Source: Neelides folsomi (Eukaryota; Arthropoda; Collembola; Neelipleona; Neelidae). Taken from it: 64,000 nt of DNA. Where the stretch lies: NCBI GenBank assembly GCA_034687125.1, contig JAQGBZ010000289.1:18229-82228 (forward strand), read 5' to 3'. Made by a program: the position numbers and the translations under genes. This document shows, piece by piece, positions 40,101 through 64,000 of this stretch; positions within the stretch are counted from its first letter, which is position 1; every line of letters starts with the position of its first letter. The notes beneath the pieces are model-generated. The model did not search any database, was not told the DNA's origin, and saw nothing but the letters and a program-made list of their open reading frames with translations.

Positions 40101-43100
40101 GTACTGTTCAGGTATATTTATTGTACGTATAAGGTGTATTTGTTATATTTATGTATTTCTACCAGAGATCTTCCCATCATCACTTCTCATTCTTTCCATC
40201 CCTCCAGAAAGGGAGCTGATGGTGGTTGATAATAAAAGAAATCTGTTAGGTTCAATCATCCAAACAATCCAAGCTCAATATTTCCTCATTTCCCCCTCCT
40301 TCCTTTTACTATTTAATAAAAAGAGAAAGCAAATATTACTTCCCCTCCAATTTCCCAAATTCCTAACAAAAATCAGATCAGTTGCGATTTGCAATATTGT
40401 ATTATGTATCATAAATAAATAGAATTTCTAAATATTGAATACTACACATTTTATACAGGTAGTATTTTTACAGTATATAAAAATCGCTATAATTCAGAAA
40501 CTAAATTTTCTTATTTTTATTTAATGTGAAATGATCAGAGGGTGAGTTTAAAAGCGTGAAAGTTAATCCTCTTAACTTTTGAAAATTCCATCACTGTATT
40601 TAATCCTCTTCAAATTTAATGATTTTTTTCCTTCAGCTTATACCCAGATAAGTAACAGCTATGAATATAACGAGGATATTTTTATCATGGTACTTTTGGT
40701 TCTTCCATATAACTAATAAGTATACTTATTATTTTTTAGCATTATGCGAAATACTGGAAATAAGTCGGTAGAAAATATATACCTAACTGTAGTTTTGGTG
40801 TATGATTATGAGTTATGATCTTTATGAAGTTTGAAAAAGGAAGAAATATGAGTATATTTCTTAATAACCATTCTTACGAGTTTTGACATTGAAAGTTTCA
40901 TCGAGCATTTGTGGAGTTCTTTACGAAGGCGAAGTGTTTTATTGGGCGTCGAGGGGGAGAGGATTTGTAAGGATTTACACACTTGGGCGATTGTAAACAC
41001 CACCAAGCTCTTTTTATTTCCAACTATTTCCTTCAGGTTTCTCTTTCTTTCGGAACAAACATTTCCACTTCATTCTGAGAATACTGGGAAATGTTGTTAG
41101 CCCAGGAAATAATGGAAGTAATAGGAAACGACCCTTCCATATCTTTCTTTTCAAACGCTCAAAAGTGGAGAATAAAAGAAATGAAAGAAACACCAAAAGG
41201 AAATAAAAAATCTTAAACGATGAACGAAACTAAAAGAAACGAATTTCTCCGTTTTAATCTCACTAATTGTCTTTTCTTTATAATCAAATAAATCATGTCA
41301 AATTAAGATCATAATTTAATATTAAAAATATTCATTTTATTTTAGTTAACTAATTGTGGTTGGATTTGAGTTTTAATTCTAAAATGTTGTTCAATGGCGG
41401 TTGGATTAAAATTAAAAATGCATGTTGGGAGTGGTATTGAGGTAATTATAGGAAGAGTTGAAGTGTAATAAAACCCAAGTTGTTTGTATTTCTCTTTCTG
41501 GAAATTGGTTGTTTCTTGTTTGGAGAAGGGGAACATTTACTTGATGTTAGAAAGCATTAAACTGTAGGTGACTGTTTTATGTCCCCCGCCGTCCTCCACA
41601 TTAATTAAGGATATTTTATCTCTCTGATATTCTCCGCCTTTCCTTCTTGATATTTATAATGCAAGTTGATTGCAACTCTTCTTCTCCTGAGCTTGGATAT
41701 ATTAATAATGCATTTCCAGTTGGAGTTGAAATAAGGAAAGCATAGACAAAGTTCGGAACACAACTTTACGACTCATTCCATATGTTCAGACCGGCGGACA
41801 TAAAAAGAGTTTCTTTTACGACATCAATTTCATGTGACTCTTTTATTAGACTTAATTTATGCACTACAAAACCCACGTGCTTTATTTGATCACATTGCTC
41901 CATTATCCATAATCCATATAGTAGTATATATCATAATATCATTATATCCATATTACATTAGCAATTTCAATCATATAGCTTTAGTTGAATTAAATAAAAT
42001 GAGAAATTAATATTTAGGATAGGCGAACGGGGATAAGTATAATAATTCAAATTAAATCTAATTAATTGTGGTTTTAAATATTTGATTTAATGACAGAATT
42101 AAATATTTGAATAAAAAGTGCATTACATTATGATAAATTGGGAGTTTTAGAATTTGAAGTCACGTAAAGTTCGTTTGCAGGGGAAGATACGAGCCGAGTC
42201 ATAAATTTGTATTATGTAAGAGGGGAAAGTGATGAGAAATGAAGATAGAAGTTAATGAGGTCTTTGAAATTATAATTAAATAAAACTCCTCATCTCCCTC
42301 CTTTACAACATGGGCCATGTGGGTTTAATTCAATTCCTAGTTATAACCCTCATCAGACTAATCCCATCCCTAACATCCTTCCTTTACAAATTGGAAAATT
42401 CAATTTTGAATACTTAAACCATGTTCTTAATATCTGTAGTTATATCAAGATATACAGATTGTAGAAATGATAAATATGGTAATAACAAAAATGTCGTCAT
42501 CTTTTTAACCGATTCAGTTTTAAATGCAAAATCGTGATGAACACAAGATAGACATATATGAATATTATATGTATTTACAGATATCCAATATATTCTACCT
42601 AATTGTACTGTATAATATAATGTCAAATACAGACCATACATAATAAATATATGGCTACGAGTAAAAAGGAAGAATAAATTATTCCCCTTGTTCCGATTCA
42701 ACCACATGATAATTTCCCAACGGGTTCTCATTATCTTTCCTAACACCCTCCGAGGAGGATTGGAAGGGTCCCTTTATCAATTACGATGATGCACAACGAC
42801 CCTTCGATCCCTTCAACATTTAAATTGGAACATTGGAAGTTCATTCGCCCCTCAAAGGGAATATTTCATCATGTGTAGAGGATTTAACGAGGGATTCAAT
42901 TCTAAATCAACTTCATTGGGAATCCGACATAGGGAATAAATCCATCCCGAACAAAGGCATTAGCACATGAATAGAAAAAACCTTCGATATTCCCAACATC
43001 TCAATGACAGCTCATTTGCTCATTATTTTGGACAACTCTCCTCAATGTTGATTCAATTTCAATATTTAATATTCAAAATTGTTCTATATTTTATACAAAT

Positions 43101-46100
43101 CCATACAATAAGAAAGACGTCTTTCTTTGGTACCTTACCATATAACATTTATTTTACCATATACCGTATACCATATAACAATTATTAGTAGATGGTGAAG
43201 AGCTTATTGTTTAACGCATTTGTTAAATATTTAAGAAGAAACATTTTTCAATAGTTGGCAAAATGAATGGAATGGGGAAAGGGAATGAAGCAGAAGAACA
43301 CAAAGGACACAATGAGACTTGTCACATGTCAAAAGAAATTATTTTTCCGGAGGCGCCGGTTCGAACCCTCGAAGGGATCTTTTAATTTCAACCTCTCCCA
43401 ATTTTCCTTTCTTCCAGCACGCTCCATTTCAATGAAGAATCTCTCATTAAATGTACCCTGAATCATTCAAGTCTTGCAATTGTCCTCGTGCAATTGTGCA
43501 TAAAAATTATGCATGGACAATTGTCCTAAACCCTTGATTTTGCTTTTGGATTTCATATGCAGACTATTAAGCATCTAAATATAATTTATATATGTTTTTA
43601 ATTGAGTCATTTTCGTTTAAAAACTTAACGACGTGTGTTCTTTAATATAGCTGTTTGTTTCAAATTTTTATTTTAAGATTCAAGTCAAAAAGAACACGAT
43701 TAATTAAATTATGTATGATGTGTAGATTTATTAAGGGAATGGCCTGAGGTGATTACCAAGATATGTAAAGGCGTAATCGAATTAAGAAACGCAATTACTA
43801 GGTTAGGTTAGGTTAGGTTGTATTACTCTCCTCAACTTCCCCGTGTCATCCCTAATAAACAAATTGTGTTTACTCAGACTAATCCGATTCCCGATTGGCT
43901 CGAGGGTAATTAAACTATCATGTGCGACCTTTTAATTACAACTTTACAACCAAAATGAATAAAATTCTCTAATTAAGATTTGTTTAACTTGTTGAAACAA
44001 GTCGAAAGTTAATAGTCCGAAAAATATAAAAAGTTCGTTAAACACCTCCAGAAAATACGGAAAAGTTGAGATCTTTTTTGTTGAGAAATACAGGAAGATT
44101 ATACAAAGACATTATAAGAATAAAATGTAAAGAAAGTTTGAAAGTTTGAACTTCCAAATTCTTAAACTTCCTACAGATTTCCTTCAACTTTCCCTATTTA
44201 ACTTTCACGGCAAACTTTGTCAATGAAATTACGCCCCTCCTCCCGCATTTAACTCCGAAAATATGAAAACTTATTTTTTTAAAAAAATTTAAGAAAATTT
44301 CTATTTCTCAAATGTATTTCTCCTTATACTGTAAATATTTCAAGTCGGAGAAATTCAATTTGGAAAATTATATACTTGAGAAATTTTCATTTTGAACAAA
44401 AAGTTGGAAAATGCTAAAATTGGGAAAATTTTCATATTTCATAAAAATGTTAATTGGCGAAAATTTGTCCCTTGAGGATTTCCAAATTGACAATTCCGCA
44501 CATGTCGCAGTTTGCGCATTGAGGTCAGAAGGTATGTAGAAATTTCAATATGCAGAGAAGCAATTTGGTAAATAATTCAAAGAATTTTAACAGCGAGATC
44601 TGACTCGGGTCTTTTTCTTGATCGTAAAAACAACTTTATGACTTCATCAAAGTTAAGGATCTTTGAGATTGAATTACGTCCGACTAATAAATTTTATAAT
44701 TTCTTTATGATTCATAAAGAAAGAAATATTTTAATAGATAAGTCTATCTTTTGCAATTTTACAATATTTTTAAAAAAATGTGCAGAGCAAATTCTAATTT
44801 TTGAGTTTATTGAAAAGATTCGTAAAAGAATTAAAAAGGCCAAGTCGGATCAAGTAACATAACGAGCTTAAGATAAAGTAAAATAACATGCGGTTATGTG
44901 TGTTAATGTCTTCCTGTCTCCCTCCAAGCCATGAACAAAATGGGGATGTAAATAAATATGGGAGAAATCTTTCGCATCTCGCCATTCACAGCTTCCATAA
45001 ATTCCTCCCATTTCCTCCAAGACTTTCCAGAGTCTCCAGATCAAGACAAGATCTCAAGTTTGCTAAAGAAGCTCAACGGAGCTCAGGAGGAGGTAAAAAG
45101 TTTAAAAGGTTATTTTGGCAAATTCCCTCCATCTTCCCGGACGGCTCCTCCGATTACATTTGAATAACAACCATCGACAATACAATTTTTTATGTCCAGA
45201 GCAGACCGAAATCCTAAACATGAAATTCAATGGAGAATCTCACATAATTCCCGCTCGGTCTTCTCCCCAATGTTGGCCCGTTATCTTTCATGTCCTCCGC
45301 ATTCGATTACATACGTTCCTTTCCCATTACTGTTTTTCTATCTTACCAATAAATAATGATAAAGACTAAGGAAAAGATCGCTTATACTATGTATATAAAT
45401 ATTTTAAATTTTCCTAATATTTAAAAAATATTTTTTATTTAATATTATACAATGTTAAATAAAAATATTTATTAAAGAGATAAATATGGCTTTCATAAAG
45501 TGAGTATGAAAGGAATTAGAAATTCAATGATCCTAATAATTTCCTTTCTCAATGTCGCATAACGAAGATGGAATTGTATGAGAAATGGGGCGGAGAAGAT
45601 GGAATTTTGGTTATTAAATGAAGAGGGCCATTAAGATCAAATATCTCATTTCACATTCAGTTCATAAAGAAGTTCATAAAGAATTCTGGGAAGATCTCCA
45701 TGTTAAAATAATGAGGGTGGTGAGATGGAAAACAGAAGGAGGATTAAAAACACCATCACATTATTTTACATTACAACCAGAAATTTAATCCCCACAAACT
45801 CCCAATCCTCCCCTGTGTTATTATTCATATTCTTTCTTCATCTCTAAACCCACAAATATTTCTTTGTAAGATAATACGAGTACTCGTACTTTCCATATAC
45901 TCACATTCACTACACAAGTATCTGTATAACAATGCTAGTTTAATATTTTCCAGTGCATTCTTTATATGAAAATATTCTCCCATTAAATTTTCTATATAAA
46001 ATATCCTGCCTTGTATTCGGCTATACCTTTTTCAATTGTGTTGCATATACCTACAATGTATGGTATTATAATTTTATAATGTATTTGTATTTATAATGAA

Positions 46101-49100
46101 TCCGTGTCTTGTTTAATATAACACTGGTGCTGATGGTTCTATGAGGATTAAGGAATTGTGGAATCCAAGGACCAGATGATGTTTTCATTAACTCATCTGC
46201 AATGTCTGCATCTTGTGCATAACAAATAATAAACAGAGCTTTAGAGTTCTATAAGCTTCTACCAATTGTACAATATAAGACATCTAATATAGGAATAGTA
46301 CTGTAGCGATATACTTTATGGTATGGTTAACAGCTTACTATGGTACAGGTATATCTTATATCTGTATTTATGTATATTTTGTATGTACAGGTTTTAAATA
46401 TGAGTTCAAAGGCTCTGAGCCTTTATGAAATCCATTATGTGATGGAATGGACGCAATGTAAGAATGAGATAGTTAAATTCCCTATCTAAATATTTATAAG
46501 GTTTAAGGGAATTTGAGGAAGAAACTGTGCGGATCTGGTAGAGGCAGAGAAATGTTTCCTCTTTACGTGACTCGGAGGAGACGGGCAGAGAAAAGGGGAA
46601 ATAATATTGACATTCGGGACTCATCTTCATCTGCCACGACGCTCCGAGGGTTGGGAAAGTGAAGGAAGATAAAAGTTAAACCCAACACGTGGACCGCAAC
46701 CCAATTCACAATCCCTCACACAAACTCCCCTGGTAGGTATTGACCCTTGGAGATAAAACCAACGTAAGGTCAAAGTCAAATAGACACTTTTCCCACTAAG
46801 ATCATTTAATTTGGTCCACCACTATTTGCCCGCTTTATCACTTTTCTCCCCAGCTTTTACATTCTTGGAAAGTTATCAAAAATATTTAGTTGTCACCCTT
46901 CTAAAATACTTAAAGTTAGATTGAAAGAATTAGATTGAAAGAAACCTAAATAACTAATATTTTAAATATTTAATGATTTGATTTAAAATTATAAAATTTG
47001 ACGGAATTTGGTGAAAGGTATTTGGTAAATAAGTTTTGAAGTTTTTTTTAAAAAAACCGGTGAAGATGAGAGGGGGAGAAAATTTTTTCGCAAAGATGCG
47101 TCAGTCCCAAAAGAGTCTTTAAACTTGGATCTCTGAGGGAGATATTCATGGAGTAAAAGGGGAAAATTCCAAGTTGAGGTATAGGGAAGATGAATGGGAA
47201 AATGCATGACCCATTCTAATATCCAAAGGATGCTTTTTACGATGATACAAAAGACATCAAAATTCGCTTTTATTGTTTGCTAAATCATTTTCTATTTTCT
47301 ATCCCTTTCATACTCAAAATTTAATACATTCTTTCAACATAAATGATGGGCAACGATTCCTACTCGTTTACGCATATGGCTTCCTTTCTTTTATATCTAA
47401 CACTTATATACATGTATTATGTTTTATAGATACCTATAAAGTATAAATATTTAAATATATATTTATGAGACACATTTATAAAATTTCGTAATGTTGTTTT
47501 ATTTGGATATTGTGAATATGATTCCATATACCATACGGAATGTATACGTAAATTCCTATGTAAGTAATACATTTTCCCAAAGAGCGAAAAGGGGAGATGA
47601 AAAATGGTAAAATTGGGATTCCCTTAAAAGTGGATTTTAAACCTCATCGTCATTTCCCCTCATTTTTGGTAAAGGTCCCCTCGAGTTGAATAGGATGTTA
47701 AGCATGAGATGAGGACAAGAGCGGAGGGAAAGAGTGAAGAGAGTGATGTAAATCAGAGGCAGATTGGGAAGATCTTTTTGTGGAGATTGAAAGGTAGGGT
47801 GAGGAATCTCCCCTTTTCAAACACCCCGAGTGAGATCGTAAATAAATAAGGACATTCTTCCACATGTGTCCACTCATGCAAAATCCCCGACCTTTTATCC
47901 CCTCAGCTCTTTCCAAATCTCGCTGTCACGGGGTTCCTCTCAACTAAATTGAGTTTTCCGGATTTAGAAATAAAGAATCGGAATTTTCTCGATTTGCAGT
48001 TTTCCGTTTAAACTTTTCTGTCCAGTTTGCACAATTTTCCAAAATAACATTTTAGGAATTTATTGGAATGTCAAAATTAATAAATAATAAATTAGCCATT
48101 TTAAATTATATATTTTTTATTTAAATAAAAATAAAGAAACAAGAAGCATGTAGATTGCAGAAATGCTAACGTCAGAATGAAAAAAATCTAAAAGTTCTTA
48201 AAAGTTAAAATTAAGTATTCAGATAACGTTTAATTTAATGTAAATGTTGCTAAAAACTAAATTGCCTTGTTGGAGGTATTTAGATTCCAAAGATTCGAAT
48301 GGAAATTAGGCAGTTCAATTATGCATAGAAGCAATTTTATTTTTTGCCTTGTCTGAAGAGGAACGAAGCGAAAAGCTGTTTGTGAAGCAGAAGGAACATC
48401 AAGTCAATGATGGAAGTGGAAGTTGAACAGAGGCGAAGAAGTTGATGGGAATCTCATAGATAAATAGATCTCCAATGAATGATTTATTGCCCTTCTCTCG
48501 ATCCAATAGCTAACAATGTTAAATGTCACTTTTCTTTATCGCCCATCTTAACCACACATTGAATATTGAATCCGTACATTTCAGACATCTTCCTTATACA
48601 ACTCACTAACTTCATATCAAATTCCACAAAATCACAATATTCATATTCTATACAAATATTTACTATATTCCTTATATGTACATATACATATTATACAGTA
48701 TGTATGTTTTATGCACAGTATTATACAAATAGTATAATATGAATTTTGACACGAGTGAAAAGTTAAAACACACACGGAGTTAAAGTTAAAAAAAGAATTA
48801 AAAAAGCGACAGGAGTGTCAAGTGAGGAAGATGTCAACTCTGGGTATTTCATTGCATGGAGAGTTTGAGAGAGTCAAAGGGCATTATGATTTGACAACTG
48901 ACACACACACGATTCGAATCTTAACAAGCTAACAAGACCAACAACCATCCAAACACAACCAATATAATTTCCAAATCCTACACAAGCCGAAGCTTAAATT
49001 CTTCTAACTTTATTAACAGAAGAACCTCTGAAGACTCTGAAGTTGTTGGAGTAAATTGAGTAAAATTCCCCTCTATGTATCTGCAGATAGTTAAAATTTC

Positions 49101-52100
49101 TAGTGGGAATGAAGATTGAATGGGTGGAGATTTAAGACGTCAAGAGAAATAGAGAATGAAGAAAGGGAGAAAGAAGAAGGAACAATGGAGTCTGATAGAT
49201 CGACCGAACGTGTTTGGGAAGTAAAGAAAAAGTGTGGTGACAGTCAAACTAATTTTTCAACCAGGAAAATCCCCCAAACTAAAGGAAATGACCAGGAGGG
49301 ATCTTTTCCAATGACCATTTCCACCAATTCCAATGTCTCTTTATCTCACATTCGGTCTCTTTTCTCACTCGAACACCTTTCATACTTCTTCATAGATCTT
49401 CTATCATTCTATCTCTCTTCAAATGAGCAAACTTATCTATTTTTATTAAACTTTTTTGACCATGATCTTGATCTTGAATTATGATATCTTTTGACGAATT
49501 TTATATAAACCATTATAAAGACCGTTATATAAGATAAACTCTTGAATTGCATCCATATGGTATATGAGATACATCTGTATTTATGTATGTAGGCATGTAT
49601 TATTAAAATATCATATATTATAAATTAGTCATGGATTTTTATAAGATTTGAATCCCGATTATATAAAAGAAGATTGCAAGGCGTAAGGTAAATGCTTTTG
49701 GTTTTTATCTTATTTAATATCAAGTATCTCCGCTAGTAGAACTCCAACATTTATTGGATGAGATAAAAAATCTTGTGCTTTATAAAAGAGACTGAGGAGG
49801 GGGATGAAAAATTGTAGGTAATTTAACAAAATGTCTCGTTTCCTCCCCTGGCTCAATTCACCGAATTGCACTTCACAAGCTCAAACACGGAATTCCTATT
49901 TGTCAAATTCTTTGGGTTGTAATTTGAAAAGCAGAAGGAATTATTTCATTTAACATAGATTCATGTTATTATCTTTACAATTTCATCTCTTTTAATTTTA
50001 TTTAAGTTAGATTTAAATCTAAATCTATATAAATATTATGACAAGGGGAATTATTTAACTATGCAATACATCAAATATCAAAATTGAGGAAACGAAATTT
50101 AGCATTCGATGTTCTATGAAAAGAAATCCAATTATAAGAATTATTTAAAGTTTAATTATATTAAAGAACGACTTAATTAAATGTTACTAAACAATTCACT
50201 TCTTGACAGGGGAAGTTTATGAAGAGTTTTGATCTTATTGAATGAAGGGTTGAGAAGTTGAGATGATGCGTAAAATTATATTTCAATAAGGAAGTTGTGA
50301 GGAATTGGAAAAGGAAGTTGAATCACACCAAGACCCGACGCCCCTCGAGCCCAATTTTCTTCTCCCCGCATATGGAGGGGAAATTCCAGAACCAAAACAT
50401 CCACCAAACTTCCACACAAATTCTCATAAAATGAGATGGAAATGCCGAGGGGAAAGTTTAATATAAAAAGTTTGGAAATCAAATTAAAATAATATTCTTT
50501 AAGAAACTTTTATCAAAACAAATATTTTACTTCCAACAAAACAATTTCCACTAATCTTATTCTTAAACAGATCATTTTCAATTAAAAATCTTAATCTAAT
50601 AAAAATTACTCATTTAAAAAATATACCTATATATAAAAATGAAAAAATTAAATTATATAATGATAATCCCTTCAATCAAATCGCTTTCTAACAGTTTGAC
50701 ACAAAAATAAGTTTTATGTGAAAATCTTATCAAATATTGATAAAGCTTAAAAGCATTGGAAAATCAATTTTTAACTAACTTTCACCTTCCCTCAAAATCT
50801 CCAATTTTTAATTTAATTTTTCTTGCTCAAACAACGAAGGGGATCTGGGGAAGATCTGAAGGGCAAATCCTCCACACGTGTCATCTGATCTCATATAGAA
50901 ATAGTGTTAAAAGAGAAGTTGTATAAAGAAGGTCTATGATTTCCACCAGGTCTTTGAGACCACCCAGAGGAAATCGAAGTTCCTAAAACTTTCATAACTT
51001 TCCATCTCCCAACCTATAAATATAAACTTGTAAACAATCCAACCAATACAACTTCATATGACACCTTCTAACAATTCATAATATCTTCCCATACATGATA
51101 TTATAAAGACAGCTTCATATATTCCATAATAAGTTTATTGCACTCAAATGCTACACGTGTAACATGTAAGCCATGTTCCATACACTAATGTAATACAGAT
51201 ATGTAATACATACATCATACACCAAAGTAATATTAGTATGAAATTGGCCTTTATTCATGTGATGTTTCTCCTACATTGAGAATATCTCTTTTTGTAATCT
51301 CATCCAGGGGAATTGGAAGAGTTAAAGGAGAAAGCAAATGTATTTATTAAGTAAGGGGAATCTCCTCCTCGGATGTCAACTCCTCTCATTTCAATGCTCA
51401 ATGGGAATTCCTCTTTCATCTTCTTCCTCTGCCGATTAAGCAAACACTTACACAACTCTCCTCTATAATTTTAAACATCATGTGGAAGCAATTGTAATGA
51501 GCAATTTGGTCCGCATTCCGCCCACACACAAATTCACCAAAGAAGACACACATGAGGTCCATTAAGGACCAAATGTTGGAAAAGGGACATCTCCCAAAGA
51601 ATCAATTTCATCCCCTTCCACATCTCTTCCGATCGCGTTCCATATATTTATCCAGCTCCTCCCTTACTTCCGTATGCTCTATACAATACCCACAATATTT
51701 TATATACTCTACTATATAAGTACTCTATATATCCATGTATGGAATATATTGTAGTACAGATATATTGGAATATATGTATAGAGTATCAAGTGGAGAAGTG
51801 CGATACACCCTGATATTCAATACTCATCCTATTGATCTTGATCTTCTCCCTTACTGATACAGATGAAAGAGATATGGTGATATAAATAAAAGATACTTTA
51901 TTATTTATAAAGATGGTGATCCCGATGATGCAAAAGTTCTCCAATTGAAATCTCATGAATCATGAGGGAGAGGGTGAATTGAATGAAGATGACGTTTAAT
52001 AATGACGACTCATCCTCACATTATTATCATTATCTCTCCCCTTATGCCAACAATGACTTTGCTTTTGTTCTCCATATTCACACCCCATAAAATATTTCTT

Positions 52101-55100
52101 TCTCCTTCTGTTGACACTTTTCCTTAAACTCGCTCTATTTAAACTCGATCTCGTATTTACTTTGGTTATTTTATAGGCCGCCTTGTATGTAATTTCTGTA
52201 AACATTCACTGTAATGTAAAACCACACCACTTTCATTTCCAATAAATATTCCAATCAAAACATTTGATTTACTGAGCCAATATTTTTATAATTCAGTCAA
52301 ATATTCTACTATAAATTCATTTGTATAAAATTATAAATACATTGATTTAGTATTTTACTGATCAGTATTTATGGCATATTGCATTAATATTTAATATCTA
52401 TGGATAGATATTCGAACAAGCCATTTGGTTTCTTCGCCCAATGATGCGGGTGAAGATGAATGAAGAGAAAGGAATAGTAAAAGCGTTCTCCCTCTGAAAG
52501 AGATCGGTCGTTCATTTAAGTCTTTTGGGAAGAAGAATGGGAGGAAGGACATCTCATCCATTTCTATGGGGAAATTAGGGACAACTCACCAACCCTCCAC
52601 CCTTACCGGAACTCAGGCCCTTTTCCCTCCAATGCCAAATTCCTCCCATTGTTCCCAATGCTCTAAGAGAACGTCAGATCCAATGATCGTATACTTTATA
52701 TATCTGTATATTCGTATATCTGTACTTGGATTCTGAAGAGAATCTTATACAAGAGAGAATCACTACAAAATGATGCGATCCGTACAACAGCTCCGCTTTA
52801 TTGATTCACAATTACCAACTTGTGACTCATTATTTCTTTTAGTTCAACATTACTATTAATGCTATCCATTACTTAACAGCATAAGTACAAGTCCAATCGT
52901 AAAGCACATTGTTATTAAAAGTACCAGCAGTAAAATTAAACCCAAATTTCTTGACTAAATAGACTCAAAACCATAAAAGCTATTAAAAAGGATAAAGGTC
53001 ATGAAGAGTAATAAAAGTCATAAAGGTCATTTAATGGGAGTTGTTAAAACTTTGAATAACTTGGAAGAGCTCGTAAAAATCCAAGTGTTTGGCTAATAAT
53101 GGTTCCTAATGAAGGAAAAGAGGCGGAAGGAAATAGATTGAGGATTTGAAGAAGTCGTTACAATGAATTGTGATAGCCAGATGCCTTTGAATTTACAGTG
53201 TAAAAGAAGTTGAGGGAAATGATCGTATTTGAACAATGAGTCCTTCTGGCCCTTAAATAAGTTAAATATGGTCCGGAAGTGGAGAGGGCTGAAGATAAAC
53301 AGAAGGACTAATTAGTCTCCCTTTATGAATGTCTTTCTCCACTTATGGCTCATTCTTATTGTTAATGTAAGAAAAGGTTGAAGTATAGATGAAGGAAACA
53401 GAAAACAAAAATGTCTAAATTGCTTTATGCCAAGATGTAACGTCCCGGTAATATGTCAATAGTGTGAATCTTAATGAGTGGGAATTGTACTAACTGTATT
53501 ATGAGTAATGATGAGGAAAGGAAAATGGTAAGAGGAAGTTGACCATTTTTTTAAATTTTTTTACCTGCCACAGGTGACAGTTTGGTCACAACAGCCCAAC
53601 GAGTTTTCCACTGTGAATAATAAAAATTAAATTCTAATTCCAGTAACTATTTAATAATATTATTTTGGTATTGAAAATTATTAAAGTTTAAATAGAAATT
53701 TTCAAGGATTGGATTTTGTATTGAAAATCTGTGTTGAAAATATCGAAAATTTAGAGAGGAAGGGGAATTCTAATTAGAAATTCTAATGGGCTTAAAAAGG
53801 TTATTGAGAGGGTTAGAAAAATTTAAAATTCAATTCATGTATTGGAAAAGACTGGGAGGGTTGGAATCTCAAACTTCCTTAAACTTCAATATAAAACCCT
53901 TTAAATACAAAATCTTAAAATGGGGATTTAAGGAACTCGGAACTTTCATTTACTCTACAATAGTTCCAGCCATTTTCCAATATTTTTCTTGCTTGGGATC
54001 TTTAATTTATTATAAAGTTTTTAGTGATCAAAATGTGAATCCCATAATTCATCACTTTTAACAATCTCACAAAGCATATAATTTTCCCTGTACAAAAAAG
54101 GAATCTTGTGGATTTTGGTCTCAATAATTGGGATCTTGGTGAGATTATATAAATAAGCCCCAAGGGTTTTCTCCAATAGCTATACAATTAAAGATAATTT
54201 AAGTGAACGTGAGAAAACATTCTTGGTTTATCTTTTGAAAAACAAAACTGACCTTTTTCCCATCACGGAATTTGCAGTGACCTTCAATTAACGTGTTTGC
54301 ATCAACCATTTTGATTCTTTTCACCTTTACAAGATCTCCAATTTATCTTTTCATCTCTGATGGTTTTTTCACCTCTTATACTTTACACTTTTTATTGGAT
54401 AATTGCGAGATACTCAAACTTCAATTTGTTTGCATAAATATCCAATTGCTTTTACATAACTCTCGTTAAACTCGTTGCATAAAATTAAAAAGATAATCAA
54501 TTCTCGTAACGAAAACCTTAAGAATTCTTTCCTTTATAATTACACACACACACAATGTTTCATCCATCTCTCAACAATTCGATCGAGAGGAAATGAGAAA
54601 AAATGTCTTTTTATCAGAAGAATGAGATGTGGAATTGACGTTGGACGTCGAATGTCAACTCCTCCCTTTTGATGTCAACTTCTTCACTTTTTCACTCCAC
54701 CACAAATCAAATCAAGAAAGGTGACGTGTGAATTAATGGAAAAACTTCTCTTTTAAACCACACCATCCAAGCTCACTTAAACTCTCTTAATTTTGATCTT
54801 TTAAATGTTATTTAATTTAGCTTAAATATAACTTTTCATAATCTTTGGCCTTGATTAGAGTTTATAAACTCATTCGTTAAATTAAGCATTAGCACAACAC
54901 TTTAATTTTATCAAATATCGTATTGAAAAAATATTAAAAAGTGAGTTCATTCAACTTCAGAATCTTCAGACCTTTTCAATTCAATATCTTATCTTATAAT
55001 AATTAAAGGTCATTTTTGGTTTAAATGACTTTAAGGTTACAAACCTTACACAACATCCACCACATGTACACATGTTTGAATGTCTTTACATCATATAGAA

Positions 55101-57066
55101 AATGTTTATTTTACTAATTGACAAATATTTTTAATTTTATTCCACCCTTATAGAAAAAAGCCGATTGTAATCACTGTTCCAATATGTCAATTTTAATATA
55201 TAAAATATTCACAATCAGTGTATTATTTTGTATGGGTATGAAGATAGTGAAAATATTTATATGATAAGTGGAAGCCGAGGGGATGTTTCTCGTTGGAGAG
55301 GAACGAACCAACTGAAAGACTTCGGAAGGGGGAAAATGGACCATATCACAACACAGCCCAAACTGGAAGTAGAGAGAAACTCGAAAACCAAAAGCTATAC
55401 GGGAATTTGTATATGGAAACATCCACGCTGTTCCCTTCCCTTATAAACTCACAGCCAGAGTAGTCACAGTACAAAATTGCTCAAGTTCAGATCAAATATA
55501 GAGAAATGGAAAGAAGCAGATGGGAAGTATCGGGTTATAACTTTCTCATATAGCTTCTGTATTATGGATATAATTTGGTATGGAAGGAAGGGCATTGAGG
55601 GAGCCTTTAGTTGGTTCACATTTCAAATGAACCCTAACAACCCTCAAAGAGAAGTACGAGGACTTTTCTCGACATCAAGCACAACATTTCACCCCTCGTC
55701 CAACCCTTCATACAATTTCAACACAACTATTTTGGGTCGCAACTTGAGGAATCTTATAAAGGAATTTGTAACTCAAACTATTTAATTTGTAAAGTAATTC
55801 AAGTTGTAATATAAACATCTCAAACAATTCCTTTATTCATCAAATTCCACAATATTTCGGCCAAAATAAGCTTTGACTGATATGTCTGTAGAATAAGATC
55901 TTAGAAGATTTCTTTAATTTCGTAGAATTTTAAGATGAGATTTTCTAAAGAATTTTGAGAATTCAAGATCCAAGAAACCTAAACATTTTTAAATTAAAAA
56001 ATATTGTTTTTAACTCTTTGATAGTAAAAGTTTAAATAATAAGCTACTTGAAAAAATGAATCATTCACACAACAGAGTGTAGAAAATTATGAATTGGGAT
56101 GAATCTAAAGAGGGCTTTGACATAAAAACCCTTCCTTGTATGTATTTGTTGACCGAATAATTTATACGTTAATTGGATCATGTGAAACTGAAATTCGTCT
56201 TTTAAAAAATTATCCACGCATCTGCTTATGACCCTTTTCCCAAATTATTTTAAAGTGCAAACTACATATTTATTTTTTATAAAGAGTTTAAATCTCGACA
56301 ACGAATTCTGATTCCATTCTTTTTGAGTGGAATGAAAATGGGCAAAAAATTGAAATTCGGAACTTCATCCGTTCCATGCTTTGAATTATTGATATTGACA
56401 CGATAGAAGTAGGAGAACGGCGAAATTCTCTCACAATCTGCCATCAATTAATGCTAAATTAATTAATTAGTAATAAATAATTAAAAATATTGTGTAACAT
56501 TTTGTGCATTCGTGATTTTCTGCGAAGTTAATGAAGGAAAAAAGTTTTTCCATAATATCATTTTTTCTAGTTGTGTTAAATGCTAAATGAGTTTCTTGAT
56601 TTTTTTGCAATTAGACGTCCCTAATGCCAAATGGTCCCTGATTGATCGTTTGGAATGTAGCTATATTTATATGCAGGGAAAGAACTAATGCAAGAACAAA
56701 GAAAAACTTTCTTACCTGAAACAGGAGAAAGTTTTGATAGCACAATCCATCTCGTTTTCCACTATAATGAAATAAATAAAATATAACTCATCGAATATAA
56801 CGTTCATCAAAGTTTAAAAAAATACTCTATATATTAACAAACAATAATAAGATTTAGCTATATCTTAATTAACTTTAATATAGCTAAAAAACAAAAAACG
56901 AATAAGAGAAAAATTTCATTAGATCCTTTTATTATAGAAAATGTTTAATTTTTCTTACTTTCTTCCCATCCCTAAACTTTCCGAATCCATCAGCAATTGT
57001 GACATCCGGAAACTGATGGTGCTTCTGAGGAACCTCCACGTCAAAATGTCCAAGACAGCTCCGCAT
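31178..57066 (-). CDS. Dok7: Dok-7-like PH-PTB adaptor protein
   Basis: The common exons are 35548-35447, 35265-34986, 34617-34418, 34174-33393, 33220-31986 and 31691-31178. They are preceded by pair 1a/2a or pair 1b/2b (separate entries), giving 1088 or 1071 aa. Phases agree at every join. Residues about 4-105 form a PH domain that starts KFRDGKKWKTRW, as in vertebrate DOK7. Residues about 110-215 form an IRS-type PTB domain with FEGGSRCGKGEGV. In vertebrates Dok-7 is a cytoplasmic activator of the receptor kinase MuSK at neuromuscular synapses; the partner here is unknown. The tail is about twice the vertebrate length and low in complexity (His, Gln and Asn runs). It carries two ENYDVP sites (YxxP, CRK-SH2 type), a YVNM (PI3K-SH2 type), many YxxP sites and an SSDSGVSDGG motif like the DOK7 tail. 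It ends EYFKIDRTKLQ. An 18-kb intron hosts another gene. Confidence 0.9.
33300..33392 (-). other. Intron read-through frame
   Basis: The reading frame of the Dok-7-like exon 34174-33393 stays open for about 30 codons into the following intron. The donor at 33392-33391 (TCCAAA/GTAAGC) is strong and in frame with the next exon, so this stretch is probably intronic. Retention would give a truncated adaptor with a hydrophobic end. Confidence 0.4.
34690..34926. mobile_element. Foldback MITE-like insertion in a Dok-7 intron
   Basis: This lies in the intron between the two exons encoding the PH-PTB region. The left arm begins ATATCAGATCATA and continues AAATTATGTGTCTTATTG. The reverse complement of the right arm matches it over about 40 bp with a one-base indel and a few changes. 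Weaker pairing (TAACATAGGGAA with TTCCCTAGTTA) continues inward, so most of the 237 bp can fold back. TA dinucleotides at 34691-34692 and 34924-34925 fit a TA target duplication. It is non-coding. Confidence 0.6.
36214..36598 (+). other. Possible coding remnant in Dok-7 intron
   Basis: Two overlapping plus-strand frames have coding-like composition. The first (36214-36441) starts at ATG. The second, to 36595, follows an acceptor-like ATATTTTAG at about 36457 and encodes a Lys-rich tail ending KKPQTTLKNDMKLGQFF, then stop. That ending resembles the flexible, aromatic-ended tails of PCNA-binding proteins but does not match the PIP-box spacing. No strong donor joins the frames. It may be a decayed gene copy or chance. 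Confidence 0.2.
36718..37433 (+). CDS. Small tetraspan membrane protein, nested gene
   Basis: Four exons (36718-36783, 36893-36968, 37023-37108, 37209-37433) join in frame to 150 aa with GT/AG introns of 54-109 nt. The protein starts MFHPCCHGSLQTGARIVGIV. It has four hydrophobic segments at about residues 14-40, 49-75, 80-108 and 117-142, with an acidic end (EDIKNIEQLE). The CC...SL+TG start followed by four membrane passes resembles the insect DUF4728-type small membrane proteins and, more loosely, LAPTM-like proteins. Members are poorly characterised, so no function is assigned. It lies entirely inside the 18-kb intron of the Dok-7-like gene on the opposite strand. An AATAAA follows 108 nt after the stop. 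Confidence 0.85.
37541..37546 (+). terminator. Poly(A) signal of the nested gene
   Basis: AATAAA 108 nt downstream of the tetraspan stop codon, in the same orientation. It is the best candidate cleavage signal for that gene. Confidence 0.6.
43476..43524. repeat. Nested hairpin
   Basis: The outer arms CAATTGTCC and GGACAATTG enclose an inner pair TGCATAA / TTATGCA. Together they could form an interrupted stem of about 49 nt in the large Dok-7 intron. Confidence 0.6.
43799..43819. repeat. Interstitial (TTAGG)n telomere-type repeat
   Basis: Reads TAGG followed by three TTAGG units and TT. TTAGG is the canonical arthropod telomere unit. A short internal run can arise by chance or by telomerase-type repair of a break. 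It supports an arthropod source. Confidence 0.75.
53565..53610 (-). CDS. Dok7: Dok-7 alternative exon 2b
   Basis: A 46-nt exon between ATTCACAG and GTAAAA. It enters in phase 0, leaves in phase 1, and encodes WKTRWAVVTKLSPVA plus one base. It aligns with exon 2a at 32 of 46 bases and 11 of 15 residues. It joins exon 3 (35548) as ...A-D-C-L-Q-L, matching the DOK7 PH domain. Confidence 0.9.
54253..54309 (-). CDS. Dok7: Dok-7 alternative first exon 1b
   Basis: Starts at ATG 54309 and encodes MVDANTLIEGHCKFRDGKK, then donor GTCAGT in phase 0. The start is chosen because it is directly comparable with the vertebrate DOK7 N-terminus, which also reads EG.xK.RDGKK. It lies 643 nt upstream of exon 2b. 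Confidence 0.88.
54310..56715. other. Region between the two Dok-7 exon pairs
   Basis: This 2.4 kb should contain the promoter for exon 1b, since no upstream exon is needed for its ATG. Plus-strand open frames at 55228-55446 and 55477-55785 overlap purine-rich sequence but have no convincing gene structure. Confidence 0.5.
56716..56761 (-). CDS. Dok7: Dok-7 alternative exon 2a
   Basis: A 46-nt exon flanked by TTATAG and GTAAGA. It encodes WKTRWIVLSKLSPVS plus one base, with the same length and phases as exon 2b. If 2a and 2b were both included (92 nt) the frame would shift, so only one can be used in a productive transcript. Confidence 0.9.
56959..57066 (-). CDS. Dok7: Dok-7 alternative first exon 1a
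   Basis: Encodes 36 aa from ATG 57066, ending DGFGKFRDGKK before donor GTAAGA in phase 0. The last 17 residues align with exon 1b; the start of the exon is different. The frame is open further upstream to 57147, so the exact start is uncertain. A likely non-coding exon ends at 57202 (ACAG/GTAAG) and could join at AG 57079-57078, leaving ATG 57066 as first in-frame start after a tiny upstream frame (ATG GAA TAA). Confidence 0.8.
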
Positions 57067-57201
57067 TATTCCATTACCTGCATTCTCACCCAAACTGTCA
57101 AAATGACAGTAGAGAAAATTGCTCAATCTTTTAATTAAATCTTTCAAATAAACTACATTAAATAATTAAACTCGAATTAGAAGTAGATAAAACAATCTTA
57201 C

Positions 57202-58268: not shown

Positions 58269-60158
58269 TTAACGTCTCCTTGGCTTTTTAGCATCTGACT
58301 TAAACAGATATCGTTCACATGGACGAATTTTAACCCGGAGCCGTTTCGCTTGTAAGTTCTTCACAAGAAGATCCGTATTGGAAATCTTCAACTTCTTACG
58401 GGGATTTGTGACACAAAACAATTCATCCAATGATTCTCTATAAAAATAAATAACAATGATCATTAATATTATAAAGTATAATATTAATAATTTGTAATTA
58501 TTATACTAAATATTAATTATAATCTAAAATAAAATGAGAAAAAATAATGAGTGAACCTTTCATCCATGTCCAAAGCCAAATATTGAAAGACGCCCAAACA
58601 TTCCATCGGAGTGAGAATTCCTTTTGGCACAACATGAAGTGCAAATTCTTTCAATGGGATCAACGGGAATCGGATGAGGTTCAAAGCATCCTTCAACACA
58701 ACTCGCTTATTCGCAACATTAATCTCAACTTCGGTCTTCCCACATTCAGACTCGGCCCATCTATAATAAAATTAATCGATATCAATAACACAATAAAATT
58801 AATAAAATTCAGTTTCGATTTTGAAGTAAATAAGGTAAATACAAGTTATTTGTAGCTGTACATTTTTAAATTTTACAAACCTCATGACTGCGTTAAAGAA
58901 TTCAAGTTCGCTAATAGCAATCTCATCAGTTTCCAAAAACTTGCACAAATTATCGTAAGTCGTGTTGAGGAAATCGTCGTGTTGAACAACAGCCCAAAAG
59001 TTCCTTAAAAACATATTCAAAAACTTATTTAAAATATAAAAACTTAACATTATTATTTTGATCGTTATTTATTTAAAATAATGGTTAAGAAATAATAGTA
59101 ATAAAATTTAAATTCTTACGATAAAATGAAAGAAAAGGCCGATTCTTCCAAATTCTTAGCCAAAAATCTCTGACCACATTGGTAGAAAGAAATTGCGTTC
59201 TTTTCGTTGATCTCTTTGATCAAAAACTGTCCAGTTTTATACACCAAGTCCGGAAATTCAAACATTTTTCCCACTTCCAACACACCGCAGGCATTTTCAG
59301 TTGTCACATTGAACTCTCCGGTATAAATATGCTATAAATAAATATAAATAATTATACTTATTATCATTTAATTATGATAATACATTTTATAAGTTTTTTA
59401 ATTTGAATTTACCTGAACGAGTGTTTTGAAAGGTTCAAGTTCAATGTCAAGCAATGGAAAAATATTCTTCGTTGGTGATTCCATGAAGATGCTTTCAAAG
59501 ACGCTAGAAGCGATCATAAGAACTGTTCGGTGAGCTGTCAATTCCTCATCGTTCTTAAGCTTGAACAAAATATCATGAAAGATTTTGTTGTCGAGAGCAT
59601 AGCCAAGTTTCTCGAGGGTCGAAGGGCGGATGAGTCGCCAGCCAAGATCATGCTTCACCTCCACATCATCGTTTTTCTCACCCTCGTCACCCTCTGACAT
59701 CGTTTCAACGTCACTGTCCCCGTAATGACCATTTCCATTCACATTATTTCCATCGGCTACTTGGATTGAATAAAAACAATGAACAATATAATTAAAATAT
59801 AATTCAAACACAATTATTAGAATGAATTTGCATATTATAGTTATACGCATATTATAATAAGTACACACATGTTATACATTTTATAAGGAATAACTACTGT
59901 AATATGTAATACATTATATAAATACATTATTTGTATTATTATAGGGCAAAATATAAATTAAACTTTTATAGGTATATACACATATAATAAAATATTGGTT
60001 CTAATATAATTGATAATAATAATTAGTTTAATTTAAATGTTAATTATAATACCTGTAACGACGGCAGTTTCATCATTTTCCCTCACAGGGTCTTCTACGG
60101 GTCTCACAGGCTCTTCGGCCTCATTCTCCGACCCTGAATTCTTCTCGTGGTCTGACAT
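58269..60158 (-). CDS. BTB-BACK domain protein
   Basis: Six exons (60158-60053, 59759-59413, 59331-59120, 59003-58881, 58760-58557, 58437-58269) join in frame to 386 aa, all with GT/AG borders. Residues 1-75 are acidic and probably disordered. A BTB/POZ domain covers about 86-190 (FHDILFKLKNDEELTAHRTV; IASSVFESIF) and a BACK domain about 190-310. The stretch from WAESEC through NKRVVL..ALNLIRFPLIPLKEFA closely follows the BACK region of the BTBD1/2/3/6 group, typically cullin-3 adaptors for ubiquitin ligation. Those proteins continue into a PHR domain; here it is missing and replaced by about 55 residues of basic tail ending KKPRRR, which could be a nuclear signal. The substrate is unknown. 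The gene lies head-to-head with the SLC5 gene. Confidence 0.88.
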
Positions 60159-61432
60159 GTCGCGAGTTGGTTTTGACTTCAGCTAATTCCCCTTGACTTG
60201 GACTAACGGGAAAGCAGGGAGCGGAGCGTTTACACTTCTTAATTAACAATTAAAAGATAACCAAAGTTGGAGATCCGCCGGGGACCTAAAGGAATTGAGT
60301 CGGCTTCTATTTATTCTCATACTATACTCTAGCAGCGACTTAAATTGGGGAAAACTGAGACTTTTATTTTGAACATACCAATGCAATTTTCAATATTTAA
60401 ATGATAAATGATAATTAAAATAATGTACATCATGACTGGTAAGTCGGTTCGAATTTGTTGCGATTTACCCACACACATTATAACAAACTAAATCAAGCTA
60501 CATCTAATGTATAGTTCCTTTTTGTAGTTTATTACTTTCCTTTATGCCATAGCTATTTTAGACCTGAAAATCAGTAGATTTTTTATATGGCGTCAAAGTA
60601 GTGTCAAAAGATCAACAGATTTTGAGTTAAAATCAACACTCTAAAGGGAAGATTCGTATATTTCCCCTACTATCTTTAAGGAAATTTCTCTGAGGGCTTA
60701 AAATCGTATTCTTCTTTATCGTGACTTTTATAGAATCCACACAGACTCATTTAACAAATCAAACTTTTATTATAAACCCTAAAGAGACCGACAAATGGTT
60801 CATAGTCTTTCATTAGTCATAAATAAACAAAACTTTTTACATCAAACCCGTTAGTTTCAAAGATAAAACTTTAAGCAGTGAATATAAATTCTTAAGTAAA
60901 TTGACATTTAAGTTTTGTTTAAAAGGAAGATTTGCCAAAAATGAAGATAATTTTTCGTATTTGTGCAATTTTGCCTATGTGTAATGGAAATTCCATTCTA
61001 GAGATAATTCGGTCAAATATGATAGTTTTATAATTGTTTGCAAAATGAAATGATGCATCATAAAAGTATAACAATGCCTAATATGCCTAAATACTTACCT
61101 ACTTTCCAGATTAGCATACAATAATATTATCTTATCTATAGTTTTCATATCTCACATTAAAAAAACTTGTGTAAATGACAAATGATCATGATAGGTTACA
61201 CGTTACATACAGTTGCCCATCAATTAGGAATTAGACTACATTAAAATGGATTCATTTTTAAAGTATTTAATAAATTTGCCAAATTAATGTTTAGGTAGTT
61301 ATTTTAACAATTATTTATTGTTAGAATCAATTCTGATATAAGTTATATTACAAAATAAAACAATTATTAAGAACATAATTATTAAAAGTTATACTAATAT
61401 CAAGACTAAAAGTATTATAAAAGGAATCGGAA
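60159..61432. promoter_or_regulatory. Divergent intergenic region, BTB / SLC5
   Basis: 1.27 kb separate the two start codons, which point away from each other, so both promoters should lie here. A GC-richer patch sits within 150 bp of the BTB start; the SLC5 side is very AT-rich with no clear core element. Confidence 0.5.
60307..60316 (-). promoter_or_regulatory. Possible TATA-like box for the BTB gene
   Basis: On the minus strand GAATAAATAG lies about 150 nt upstream of the BTB start codon, followed about 25-30 nt later by an initiator-like CCGACTCAATTCC. Position and order fit a core promoter; the start site is not known. Confidence 0.3.
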
Positions 61433-63818
61433 ATGTCAAATACAGAAGAACCAATTTTCCAAATGGAAAGTCATAAACATAAATTTGACTTTATCGAATA
61501 TTCGGTTTTCTCGGCAGTCCTTGTGGCATCTTTGGGCATTGGAATCTTCTTCGGATGCTTTGGGAAGAAAAATCGAACAAATGAGGAATTTCTGATGGCA
61601 GGGCGGTCAATGTCCGTTTTCCCAGTTACAATGTCTCTCCTCTGCAGGTATAAAAATTTGGGATCAATCTGATTAAATTAATTATTCAATTATTAAGGAA
61701 TATCGGATATAAGCTTTACTGAAATTCATTTTTATTATAAAATGGGATTATTTAGCATTTCATTTTTACAGTTTCGTTTCAGCCATCACTTTGTTGGGAA
61801 CTCCAGTTGAAATTTACAATTATGGGACTCAATATTTCTTCGTAGCTCTTTCCTTCATTCCTTTGTCTCTCATGTTGGCATTCATTTACGTTCCTGTTTA
61901 TTTTCATCTTCAACTCACGTCAGCTTATGAGGTTTTCACTCTTTAAATAAAAACAATACTAACAACAAAATTAGTTATTACACTATTACAATATTTAATA
62001 ATGGTTGGATCTAAAATTAATTTTTCCCTTTCATAGTATTTTGAAAAAAGGTTCAACATCCGAGTCAGATATATCATTTCAATTATTTCAATTTGCCATC
62101 TTGTAAGCACATAAAATAATGAAAATGTTTATGTTATTTCAAATATATTTAAGATTACAATAAAACCAAGCTTCAATTTAACTTGCATAGTATTTTTCGG
62201 AATTTTGTTAAAAGATATAATCGTAGTACATAGTATGTATTTCTAAAAGTGGTTAAGCCAATTGTCAATAAAAAAAAACTTTTACACTAATATGGAATCG
62301 TTGGATTTAGATGGTTTATATGCCCACAGTCGTCTATGGCCCTTCATTAGCTATGGAACAAGGTAAAATAACCTAATGGCCATTTACATGTTGAATTATT
62401 GCCACCTAATTTCCAAATTAAACCACATTAACTTAAAATGTATTTGAATTTACAATAGTTGCGGGACTTGACAAATTCATGACTTCAGGAGTCATTTTCT
62501 TAGTTTGTATCATTTATTCCTCAATTGTAAGACAAACTAAACTTACTTTTAGTTTTGATAATAAAATAATAACATACTATTATTATTATGTATTTATATT
62601 TTATAATTAAAGCATCTATATCCTATAAAAATGTCGTGAATAAGGGAATTTACCAATTGATTTTAGGGGGGATTAAAAGCAGTTCTATGGACTGATGCTT
62701 TACAAGCAATTGTCATGTTGGGCTCACTCATCATCATCAATATCGTCGGAGTGAACAAAGCTGGCGGTTGGGACAAAGTCATAGAAGATGCAGAAAACAC
62801 AGACAGAATCAATTTTTCAAAGTTAGCTCTTTAACCTTCTTGAAATTCACATTCAAATTGTACTAATGTAAAATAATATTAATAGTAATCAAATAACTTA
62901 AAGCTAACAATAAATAAATTATTACTATAAAGTTCTTTAAATTAAACTATAATCCTACCAGCTTCGACACGAACCTCCGGACAAGACACACGTTTTGGAC
63001 TTCAGTCATCGGAGCATATTTTAATTGGATTCACATTTTCGCAGCCACACAATCACAAATCCAAAGATACAATTCCGTTCCAACTCTGAAAAAAGCAAGA
63101 ATGTATTCCGTCATATTAAACTTTTAAATAAAATTATAAATTTTAATGAATCTATTTTTAATGAATTTATAAGAAATGATCTAAAAGTTTTATTAAAAAA
63201 CATTTTAGGACAATTTTCCTCAACATGTTTTGCCTCATGTCAGTTGTTCTCCTTTGTTCCTTCACTGGTCTCGTCCTCTTCTCCTATTACAAAGAATGTG
63301 ATCCAATTGTTAAATCTCCAAAGGATGCGGTATATTTTACATTGACAATTAATTGAAACTCGATAATTATTATTTATTAATGATGTAAATTGTGTTTTAG
63401 AATTTCTCACCAGATCAACTTTTACCACTTTTTGTAATGGATGCTTTAGGAGAAATCAATGGCCTCCCAGGGCTTTTTGTTGCTGGACTGATTTCAGGAA
63501 GTTTGAGGTTTTACAAATCATCTTTTTGTTTCAGCCTAGATATGTTATTAATCATTATAAAGATAGATTAAATACAAAAATATATGATAATTAGTAAAAT
63601 ATGATTTAAACATATTTTGAATTTTGTATGCTTAAAGTACTATATCCAGCGCGTTGAATTCCCTCGCCGCCATCATCACTGAAGATTACGTGAAGAAATT
63701 TAAACCCAATTTCACCTCCGTTCAGCTTGGTCTCACTTCAAAGATAATTTCAGTAACTGGTGGAATCGTAGCGTTTGCTCTCATCTTTGTAATTGCAAGT
63801 GTTGGAGATGTTTTGCCT
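61433..63818 (+). CDS. SLC5-family sodium/solute symporter (partial)
   Basis: Ten exons join in frame to 422 codons: 61433-61647, 61772-61931, 62037-62102, 62311-62362, 62459-62526, 62667-62821, 62962-63102, 63209-63329, 63401-63507 and 63638-63818. The 3' end is outside the window. Family landmarks appear in the expected order: [21 protein letters not shown] after TM1, [90 protein letters not shown] and [18 protein letters not shown]. These fit plasma-membrane Na+-coupled transporters, closest by eye to the arthropod relatives of the monocarboxylate/multivitamin branch (SLC5A8/A6/A12). The substrate cannot be inferred. The last 180 nt of the family's usual length and final TM helices would follow after the window. 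Confidence 0.92.
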
Positions 63819-64000
63819 GTAAAGAAAAACAATCATTTAAATAAATAATCATATTTAAACCATTTAAACAAACATTAAGTCCAAATTACCAAAATTCTAG
63901 AAACTCAAATAATCATTCAGAGAATATTAGAGAGGTTCCTTTTTCAGGATTGTAGGAAATCTGATTGTAAAACGGATTGTAGAGCCGGTAATGACGTCAT
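63819..64000 (+). other. SLC5 intron running off the window
   Basis: The exon ending ...GDVLP is followed by GTAAAG. An acceptor-like CCTTTTTCAG lies near 63948, but the frame after it reads Cys-rich and unlike the family, so the next true exon is probably beyond the window. Confidence 0.5.

Follow-up and report, generated by a model that had tools for sequence, protein, structure and literature searches.

The question raised by this locus is why a Dok-7 gene holds the beginning of its PH domain twice, and how both copies might be put to use. Dok-7 is a synapse-building adaptor that is held to the membrane by its PH domain. Mice lacking it have a compromised nerve-muscle junction (PMC5585400), and in humans several myasthenia mutations map to the PH domain (PMC10117378). 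The window, that is, the whole stretch of 64,000 nucleotides analyzed here from the springtail Neelides folsomi, contains a Dok-7 gene in which the first two coding exons occur as two consecutive pairs, hereafter termed cassettes a and b.

We consider it probable that the two tandem 5' cassettes each start their own transcript and that the PH domains of the two products differ in the vicinity of strands 1 and 2. According to this model, an ancestral pair of exon 1 and exon 2, probably together with its promoter, would have been duplicated long ago. Each cassette would initiate its own transcript, 1a-2a-3 and onward or 1b-2b-3 and onward, giving rise to two Dok-7 proteins that would have the basic membrane-contacting loop, the PTB domain and the tail in common but differ in the surroundings of strands 1 and 2 and in their N-terminal extensions. 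The two promoters, the joining of exon 2a to exon 3, and any difference in expression or in dimer or binding behavior are the parts of the model that we infer.

Gene identity and organization of the locus

Mouse Dok-7 (3ml4) was the best match in the PDB for both spliced forms, with E 2.6e-47 (164.5 bits) for form b and E 4.1e-46 (160.9 bits) for form a. The next protein after Dok-7 was Dok-5, with E 0.0013 for form b and 0.0016 for form a. These matches bear out the identification of the gene as Dok-7 in the preliminary description, being clearly nearer to Dok-7 than to other Dok proteins. In both forms, the alignment to 3ml4 begins at the start of the PH domain and spans the PH and IRS-type PTB domains; for exon 1b, it begins at mouse residue 6. 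A Pfam PH match required the cassette to be joined to exons 3 to 5, reaching 17.2 bits with cassette a and 16.3 bits with cassette b, both below the cut-off of 25.1, while exons 3 to 5 alone gave no PH match at E values up to 1. The Pfam IRS match of form b, at 21.1, was also below its cut-off of 22. Two of the six YxxP motifs in the two long C-terminal open frames read YDVP, which we take to be of the Crk-SH2 type; the third open frame has none. We did not find a second Dok-7 gene in the genome, where one weak match of 33% identity (contig C295, E 0.0099) covered the PTB part, and the protein search of the genome returned one exon 3 alone.

Both pairs were located exactly where the preliminary description had placed them, on the minus strand in the order 1a-2a-1b-2b, followed by the 18 kb intron and the shared exons (Table 1). 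GT is present at the donors of exons 1a, 2a, 1b, 2b and 3, and AG at the acceptors of exons 2a, 2b and 3. The intron between exons 1 and 2 measures 197 bp in cassette a versus 642 bp in cassette b. Across the exon 1-exon 2 joint, the peptides read ...GFGKFRDGKK-WKTRWIVLSKLSPVS in cassette a and ...GHCKFRDGKK-WKTRWAVVTKLSPVA in cassette b, so that both pairs code for one and the same part of the PH domain.

Table 1. Features of the Dok-7 locus with position in the window, strand and remarks
Exon 1a	57066-56959	-	108 nt; coding from ATG: MRSCLGHFDVEVPQKHHQFPDVTIADGFGKFRDGKK; donor GTAAGA
Exon 2a	56761-56716	-	46 nt; WKTRWIVLSKLSPVS + phase 1; donor CAG/GTAAGA
Exon 1b	54309-54253	-	57 nt; coding from ATG: MVDANTLIEGHCKFRDGKK
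Exon 2b	53610-53565	-	46 nt; WKTRWAVVTKLSPVA + phase 1
Exon 3, shared, PH domain	35548-35447	-	102 nt; acceptor TTTTTTCCAG; entered in phase 1
Exon 4, shared, PH end and PTB start	35265-34986	-	280 nt
Exon 5, shared, rest of PTB	34617 to about 34419	-	3' border approximate
C-terminal region	31958-34193	-	two long open frames separated by an intron; 6 YxxP
Further open frame, may be the last exon	31178-31702	-	without YxxP
Interval between 2a and 1b, 2.4 kb	54310-56715	-	1b promoter expected here
Intron between 2b and exon 3, 18 kb	35549-53564	-	seems to harbor a small plus-strand gene
Possible 5' UTR intron of the 1a transcript	57095-57201	-	CAG/GTAAGA ... TTTTGACAG; predicted with a hand-made weight matrix

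Likeness and number of the cassettes

Exons 2a and 2b differ at 14 of 46 bases (69.565% identity) and are equal in length and phase, entered in phase 0 and left in phase 1, in agreement with the 46 nt, the phases and the base divergence of about 30% reported earlier. When the 2b peptide was scored in six frames, exon 2b itself reached 82 and exon 2a reached 67, and the next best place in the window scored 25. The best scores in 20 Markov-1 resampled windows, both strands included, ranged from 22 to 33, and the likeness between 2a and 2b is therefore not due to chance. At the DNA level, the exon 2 alignment covered 80 columns with 72.5% identity (E 2.2e-7), extending about 20 bases into the preceding intron and 12 into the following one. 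No other pair of stretches with E below 0.7 was found between the compared regions of 1.2 and 1.4 kb. The likeness between exons 1a and 1b is recognizable in the protein only, the best DNA row having E 4.4. We rejected an allelic duplicate in the assembly, as the flanks do not align and the introns between exons 1 and 2 differ in length.

When the genome (75.1 Mb) was searched for a third copy of the pair in three protein searches, the known exons alone were returned at the sensitivity used. This genome search scores the best candidates only, and the 1b query missed exon 1a, so a diverged extra exon 1 could escape it. The 38-residue match of exon 1a in the genome was exon 1a itself only. Scans of the window for a third copy yielded five-residue matches with one mismatch that were without fitting neighbors, and scores no higher than those of resampled windows.

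Reading frame and the choice of exon 2

When the exons were joined in silico, 1a-2a-3, 1b-2b-3 and 1a-2b-3 stayed open through exon 4, the last exon joined in this frame test, whereas 1a-2a-2b-3, 1a-3 and 1b-3 reached stops. Including both 2a and 2b or skipping exon 2 breaks the frame, and exactly one exon 2 must thus be used, as the preliminary description had argued from the frame shift on joining 2a to 2b. In our model, the exon length of 46 nt with its phases 0 and 1 would enforce this single use, because double inclusion or skipping would lead to a premature stop. Exon 2a can be used with exon 1a alone, since exon 1b lies downstream of it. The sequence features by which mutually exclusive exons are recognized, namely equal length and phase, homology and a frame broken by double inclusion, were all found in 2a and 2b. 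The choice need not go by cassette, since 1a-2b-3 is in frame as well.

Splice sites and transcript starts

We scored splice sites with a hand-made weight matrix from the general splice-site consensus against a background of 2,906 GT and 2,939 AG sites of the strand. The donors lay at percentiles 96.5 (1a), 99.9 (2a), 98.4 (1b) and 98.1 (2b) among GT sites, and the donor of 2a ranked first among the six that were scored from exon 1a to exon 4. Among AG sites, the acceptor of 2b lay at percentile 97.7 and that of 2a at 91.6, with a low score of 0.88. On the same hand-made scale, no acceptor scoring above 2 was found in the 300 nt upstream of exon 1b. Upstream of exon 1a, three acceptors score above 2, one of which fits a 5' UTR intron from 57201 to 57095. 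This acceptor pattern fits exon 1b being a genuine first exon driven by a promoter of its own, and two promoters, one per cassette, are likely as far as can be judged from sequence.

Another arrangement in which both copies of exon 2 would serve Dok-7 has a single promoter at exon 1a. Exons 2a and 2b would then be mutually exclusive (1a-2a-3 or 1a-2b-3), and exon 1b would be a minor or separate start. The open frame of 1a-2b-3 is in line with this arrangement, as is the sDscam precedent, in which transcripts that begin at an upstream cassette can also join a downstream one to the constant exon (PMC4835542). Exon 1b, with its own ATG, its alignment to mouse Dok-7 from residue 6 and its highly ranked donor, argues against it. 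Moreover, exon 1b would hardly have been kept without transcripts of its own, and the lack of an acceptor above 2 within 300 nt upstream also speaks for a genuine start. We therefore regard a single promoter as unlikely.

A five-codon upstream open reading frame, MQVME, lies at 57083-57066 on the minus strand, out of frame with exon 1a, its stop overlapping the 1a start codon as TAATG. This upstream frame may lower translation from the 1a start. Farther upstream on the same strand, the region 58269-59871 includes a BTB/POZ domain, matched by Pfam BTB at 59401-59871 (E 1.3e-7). The part of this region at 58520-58771 on the minus strand was without a Pfam match. If the BTB gene ends near 58269, some 1 kb remains for the 1a promoter.

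Selection on the two copies

For the comparison of the two copies, we used 27 codons, comprising 12 of exon 1, picked because they could be aligned, and the full set of 15 complete codons in exon 2. The 28 base differences were distributed over codon positions 1, 2 and 3 as 9, 3 and 16 (third versus others, Fisher P 0.0014), and 19 of the 27 residues are identical. The Nei-Gojobori method counted 15 silent and 13 replacing differences, giving a dN of 0.24 and a dS beyond saturation. The comparison of 2a with 2b that had been proposed as a check gave a dN of 0.21 and a dS of 1.84 for exon 2 alone. The first 24 residues of exon 1a lie outside the aligned block and are without a sign of constraint.

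We also simulated a neutral copy a beside a copy b with a frozen protein under a simple substitution model, with 5,000 runs at each of five divergences. At every divergence, the fraction of neutral runs with at least the observed silent differences, at most the observed replacing ones and no stop was 0.0004 or less. Residue identity alone gave P 0.92, 0.33 and 0.046 at 0.1, 0.2 and 0.3 changes per site and lineage. The mean numbers of silent changes at these divergences were 3.2, 5.7 and 7.6, against 15 observed, which excludes such a low divergence. Thus, the rejection of a neutral copy a at low divergence rests on the many silent changes and not on residue identity.

Compared with mouse Dok-7, copy a keeps 17 and copy b 18 of 26 residues, and 19 of the 26 are common to a and b, the copies being nearly as far from each other as either is from mouse. 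At positions 13, 21 and 29, the two copies have a residue in common that is absent in mouse, consistent with a duplication later than the split from vertebrates.

These counts bear on whether cassette a could be a dead or dying 5' fragment of a tandem duplication, with 1b-2b alone in use. The weak acceptor of 2a and the long distance from 2a to exon 3 are what such a fragment might show, and the number of identical residues, taken by itself, is compatible with a neutral copy if divergence is low. The many silent and few replacing differences, the lack of a stop, and the retained frame and splice sites point the other way, as do the simulated counts, which include the 12 exon 1 codons picked as alignable. 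Copy a does not look decaying in its sequence, and we judge a dead fragment to be quite improbable. The claim of an old duplication kept by selection held up as a pattern of purifying selection in the silent and replacing counts, and both cassettes have most likely been kept by selection.

It is very unlikely that 1a-2a belongs to a separate transcript leaving Dok-7, such as a brief PH fragment that terminates within the next intron. Beyond exon 2a, the frame runs on without a stop for 22 codons or more, versus a stop after four beyond exon 2b. However, exon 2a has the highest-scoring donor of the six and a phase that suits exon 3, and the genome search brought up no second exon 3.

How a transcript from cassette a would reach exon 3

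Returning to the model of two cassettes with their own starts, a transcript from exon 1a would have to bypass the 2b acceptor, 3.1 kb away, toward exon 3, 21 kb away. The model explains no mechanism for this bypass, which counts against it. RNA pairing of the sequence after 2a with that before 2b and that before exon 3 was unremarkable, at -25.5 and -29.6 kcal/mol, and 71 of 100 control pairs reached -29.6 kcal/mol. The sequence after 2b (53115-53174) and that before exon 3 (36369-36428), on the minus strand, form a long, imperfect pairing of -44.7 kcal/mol between a pyrimidine-rich and a purine-rich stretch. As one of three pairs tried, it went beyond all eight shuffles and all 100 control pairs drawn from the window, the best of which reached -43.0. 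A BLAST comparison found no inverted repeat between the paired stretches, and the region 53080-53240 matched only itself in the genome. As a lead only, this pairing might favor the joining of 2b to exon 3.

Consequences for the protein

The phosphoinositide site of Dok-7 consists of K18, K20 and R22 of the loop between strands 1 and 2, together with R54 (PMC4961371). K18, K20 and R22 are identical in both cassettes, and the R54 site corresponds to a lysine in the shared exon 3 in the 3ml4 alignment. A differing phosphoinositide contact of the two starts, to which the basic residues of strands 1 and 2 had seemed to point, was consequently not borne out. The cassettes differ around strands 1 and 2 and at position 33, the differing aligned residues being 8, 10, 11, 24, 26, 27 and 33. 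Residues 9, 12, 14 to 20, 22, 23, 25, 28 and 30 to 32 are the same in a, b and mouse. Furthermore, exon 1 contributes 36 residues in cassette a versus 19 in cassette b, making the N-terminus of form a longer by 17 residues.

Position 33 is a serine in exon 2a, and an alanine in exon 2b and mouse. A33V is a human congenital myasthenia mutation that was tested by overexpression in studies cited by PMC10117378, and the integrity of the PH-PTB unit is critical for Dok-7 dimers (PMC10117378). It is conceivable that pairing or stability could be tuned by which cassette is used. One might go further and speculate that position 33 and the residues around strands 1 and 2 tune the formation of homodimers versus heterodimers, not the membrane contact, and that promoter choice would determine how strongly the receptor is activated in each cell type, e.g., muscle versus neuron; we give this idea little credence for now.

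Relation to known gene arrangements

Homologous sets of 5' exons in tandem before one shared 3' part, which characterize genes of the sDscam, Pcdh and UGT1A type, were found here as well. In the chelicerate sDscam genes, a cassette comprises two or four exons and is spliced to constant exons, and a promoter is predicted upstream of every cassette (PMC4835542). The cassettes are proposed to have arisen when 5' segments containing exons 1-2 (or 1-4) and promoters were duplicated (PMC4835542). The Dok-7 gene resembles them in having tandem 5' cassettes of two exons before shared downstream exons (PMC4835542). In contrast, it has two cassettes and encodes an intracellular adaptor, whereas the sDscam account describes many cassettes in Dscam-type Ig/FNIII genes (PMC4835542). 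Skipping or doubling exon 2, 3 or 4 keeps the frame in sDscam, while the frame of Dok-7 forces the use of one exon 2 (PMC4835542). Promoter activity was tested by a reporter for sDscam-beta-6, whereas promoters of the Dok-7 cassettes are predicted from the sequence (PMC4835542).

Alternative 5' exons with their own promoters and a common 3' part are also known from UGT1A (PMC9013439) and the clustered protocadherins (PMC4835542). As those genes are described, they have a single variable first exon, unlike the Dok-7 unit, which is a pair of small exons with a border inside the PH domain (PMC9013439, PMC4835542). Tandem duplicated exon substitutions in human genes likewise involve homologous tandem exons that are used singly and thereby tune a region of the protein, most of the events being called ancient (PMC9741552). 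Those events are described as mutually exclusive splicing, whereas in Dok-7 exon 1 is duplicated too, which suggests promoter choice (PMC9741552). Within the same gene family, alternative splicing is known for human DOK7, where alternative 5' splice sites of intron 4 lead to a truncated protein in which the PH domain is retained, itself unvaried in that description (PMC5585400).

The type of arrangement is thus already known from other genes, and we found no description of duplicated 5' exons of Dok-7 among the matches listed in the open-licence literature. A lineage that has seemingly long kept two PH N-termini in one gene offers a natural experiment on which PH positions are variable and which are fixed. 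With both starts in use, the layout of two-exon 5' cassettes known from chelicerate sDscam would extend beyond genes for cell-surface recognition.

Other features of the window and genome

The 18 kb intron of the Dok-7 gene contains what seems to be a small gene at 36700-37440 on the plus strand, with short exons recognized by eye. Within it, a hydrophobic open frame (37182-37433, plus strand) gave weak Pfam matches below the cut-off to DUF3267 (E 0.0074) and Ni_hydr_CYTB (E 0.013). Further open frames lie at 61421-63848 on the plus strand, of which 61421-61669 was without a Pfam match; by eye, they look like a sodium-dependent solute transporter.

Elsewhere in the genome, a contig of 15,157 bases (C742) is apparently the mitochondrial genome, with COX1 found by Pfam and ND2, COX2 and ATP6 recognized by eye. 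The genes are in the order ND2-COX1-COX2-ATP6, and COX1 and COX2 are separated by about 37 nt, which is too short for a tRNA. ARAGORN returned zero tRNA at this mitochondrial locus and is therefore uninformative on the gap. Arrays of TTAGG are present in four contigs, with 19 overlapping matches versus 0 in the control.
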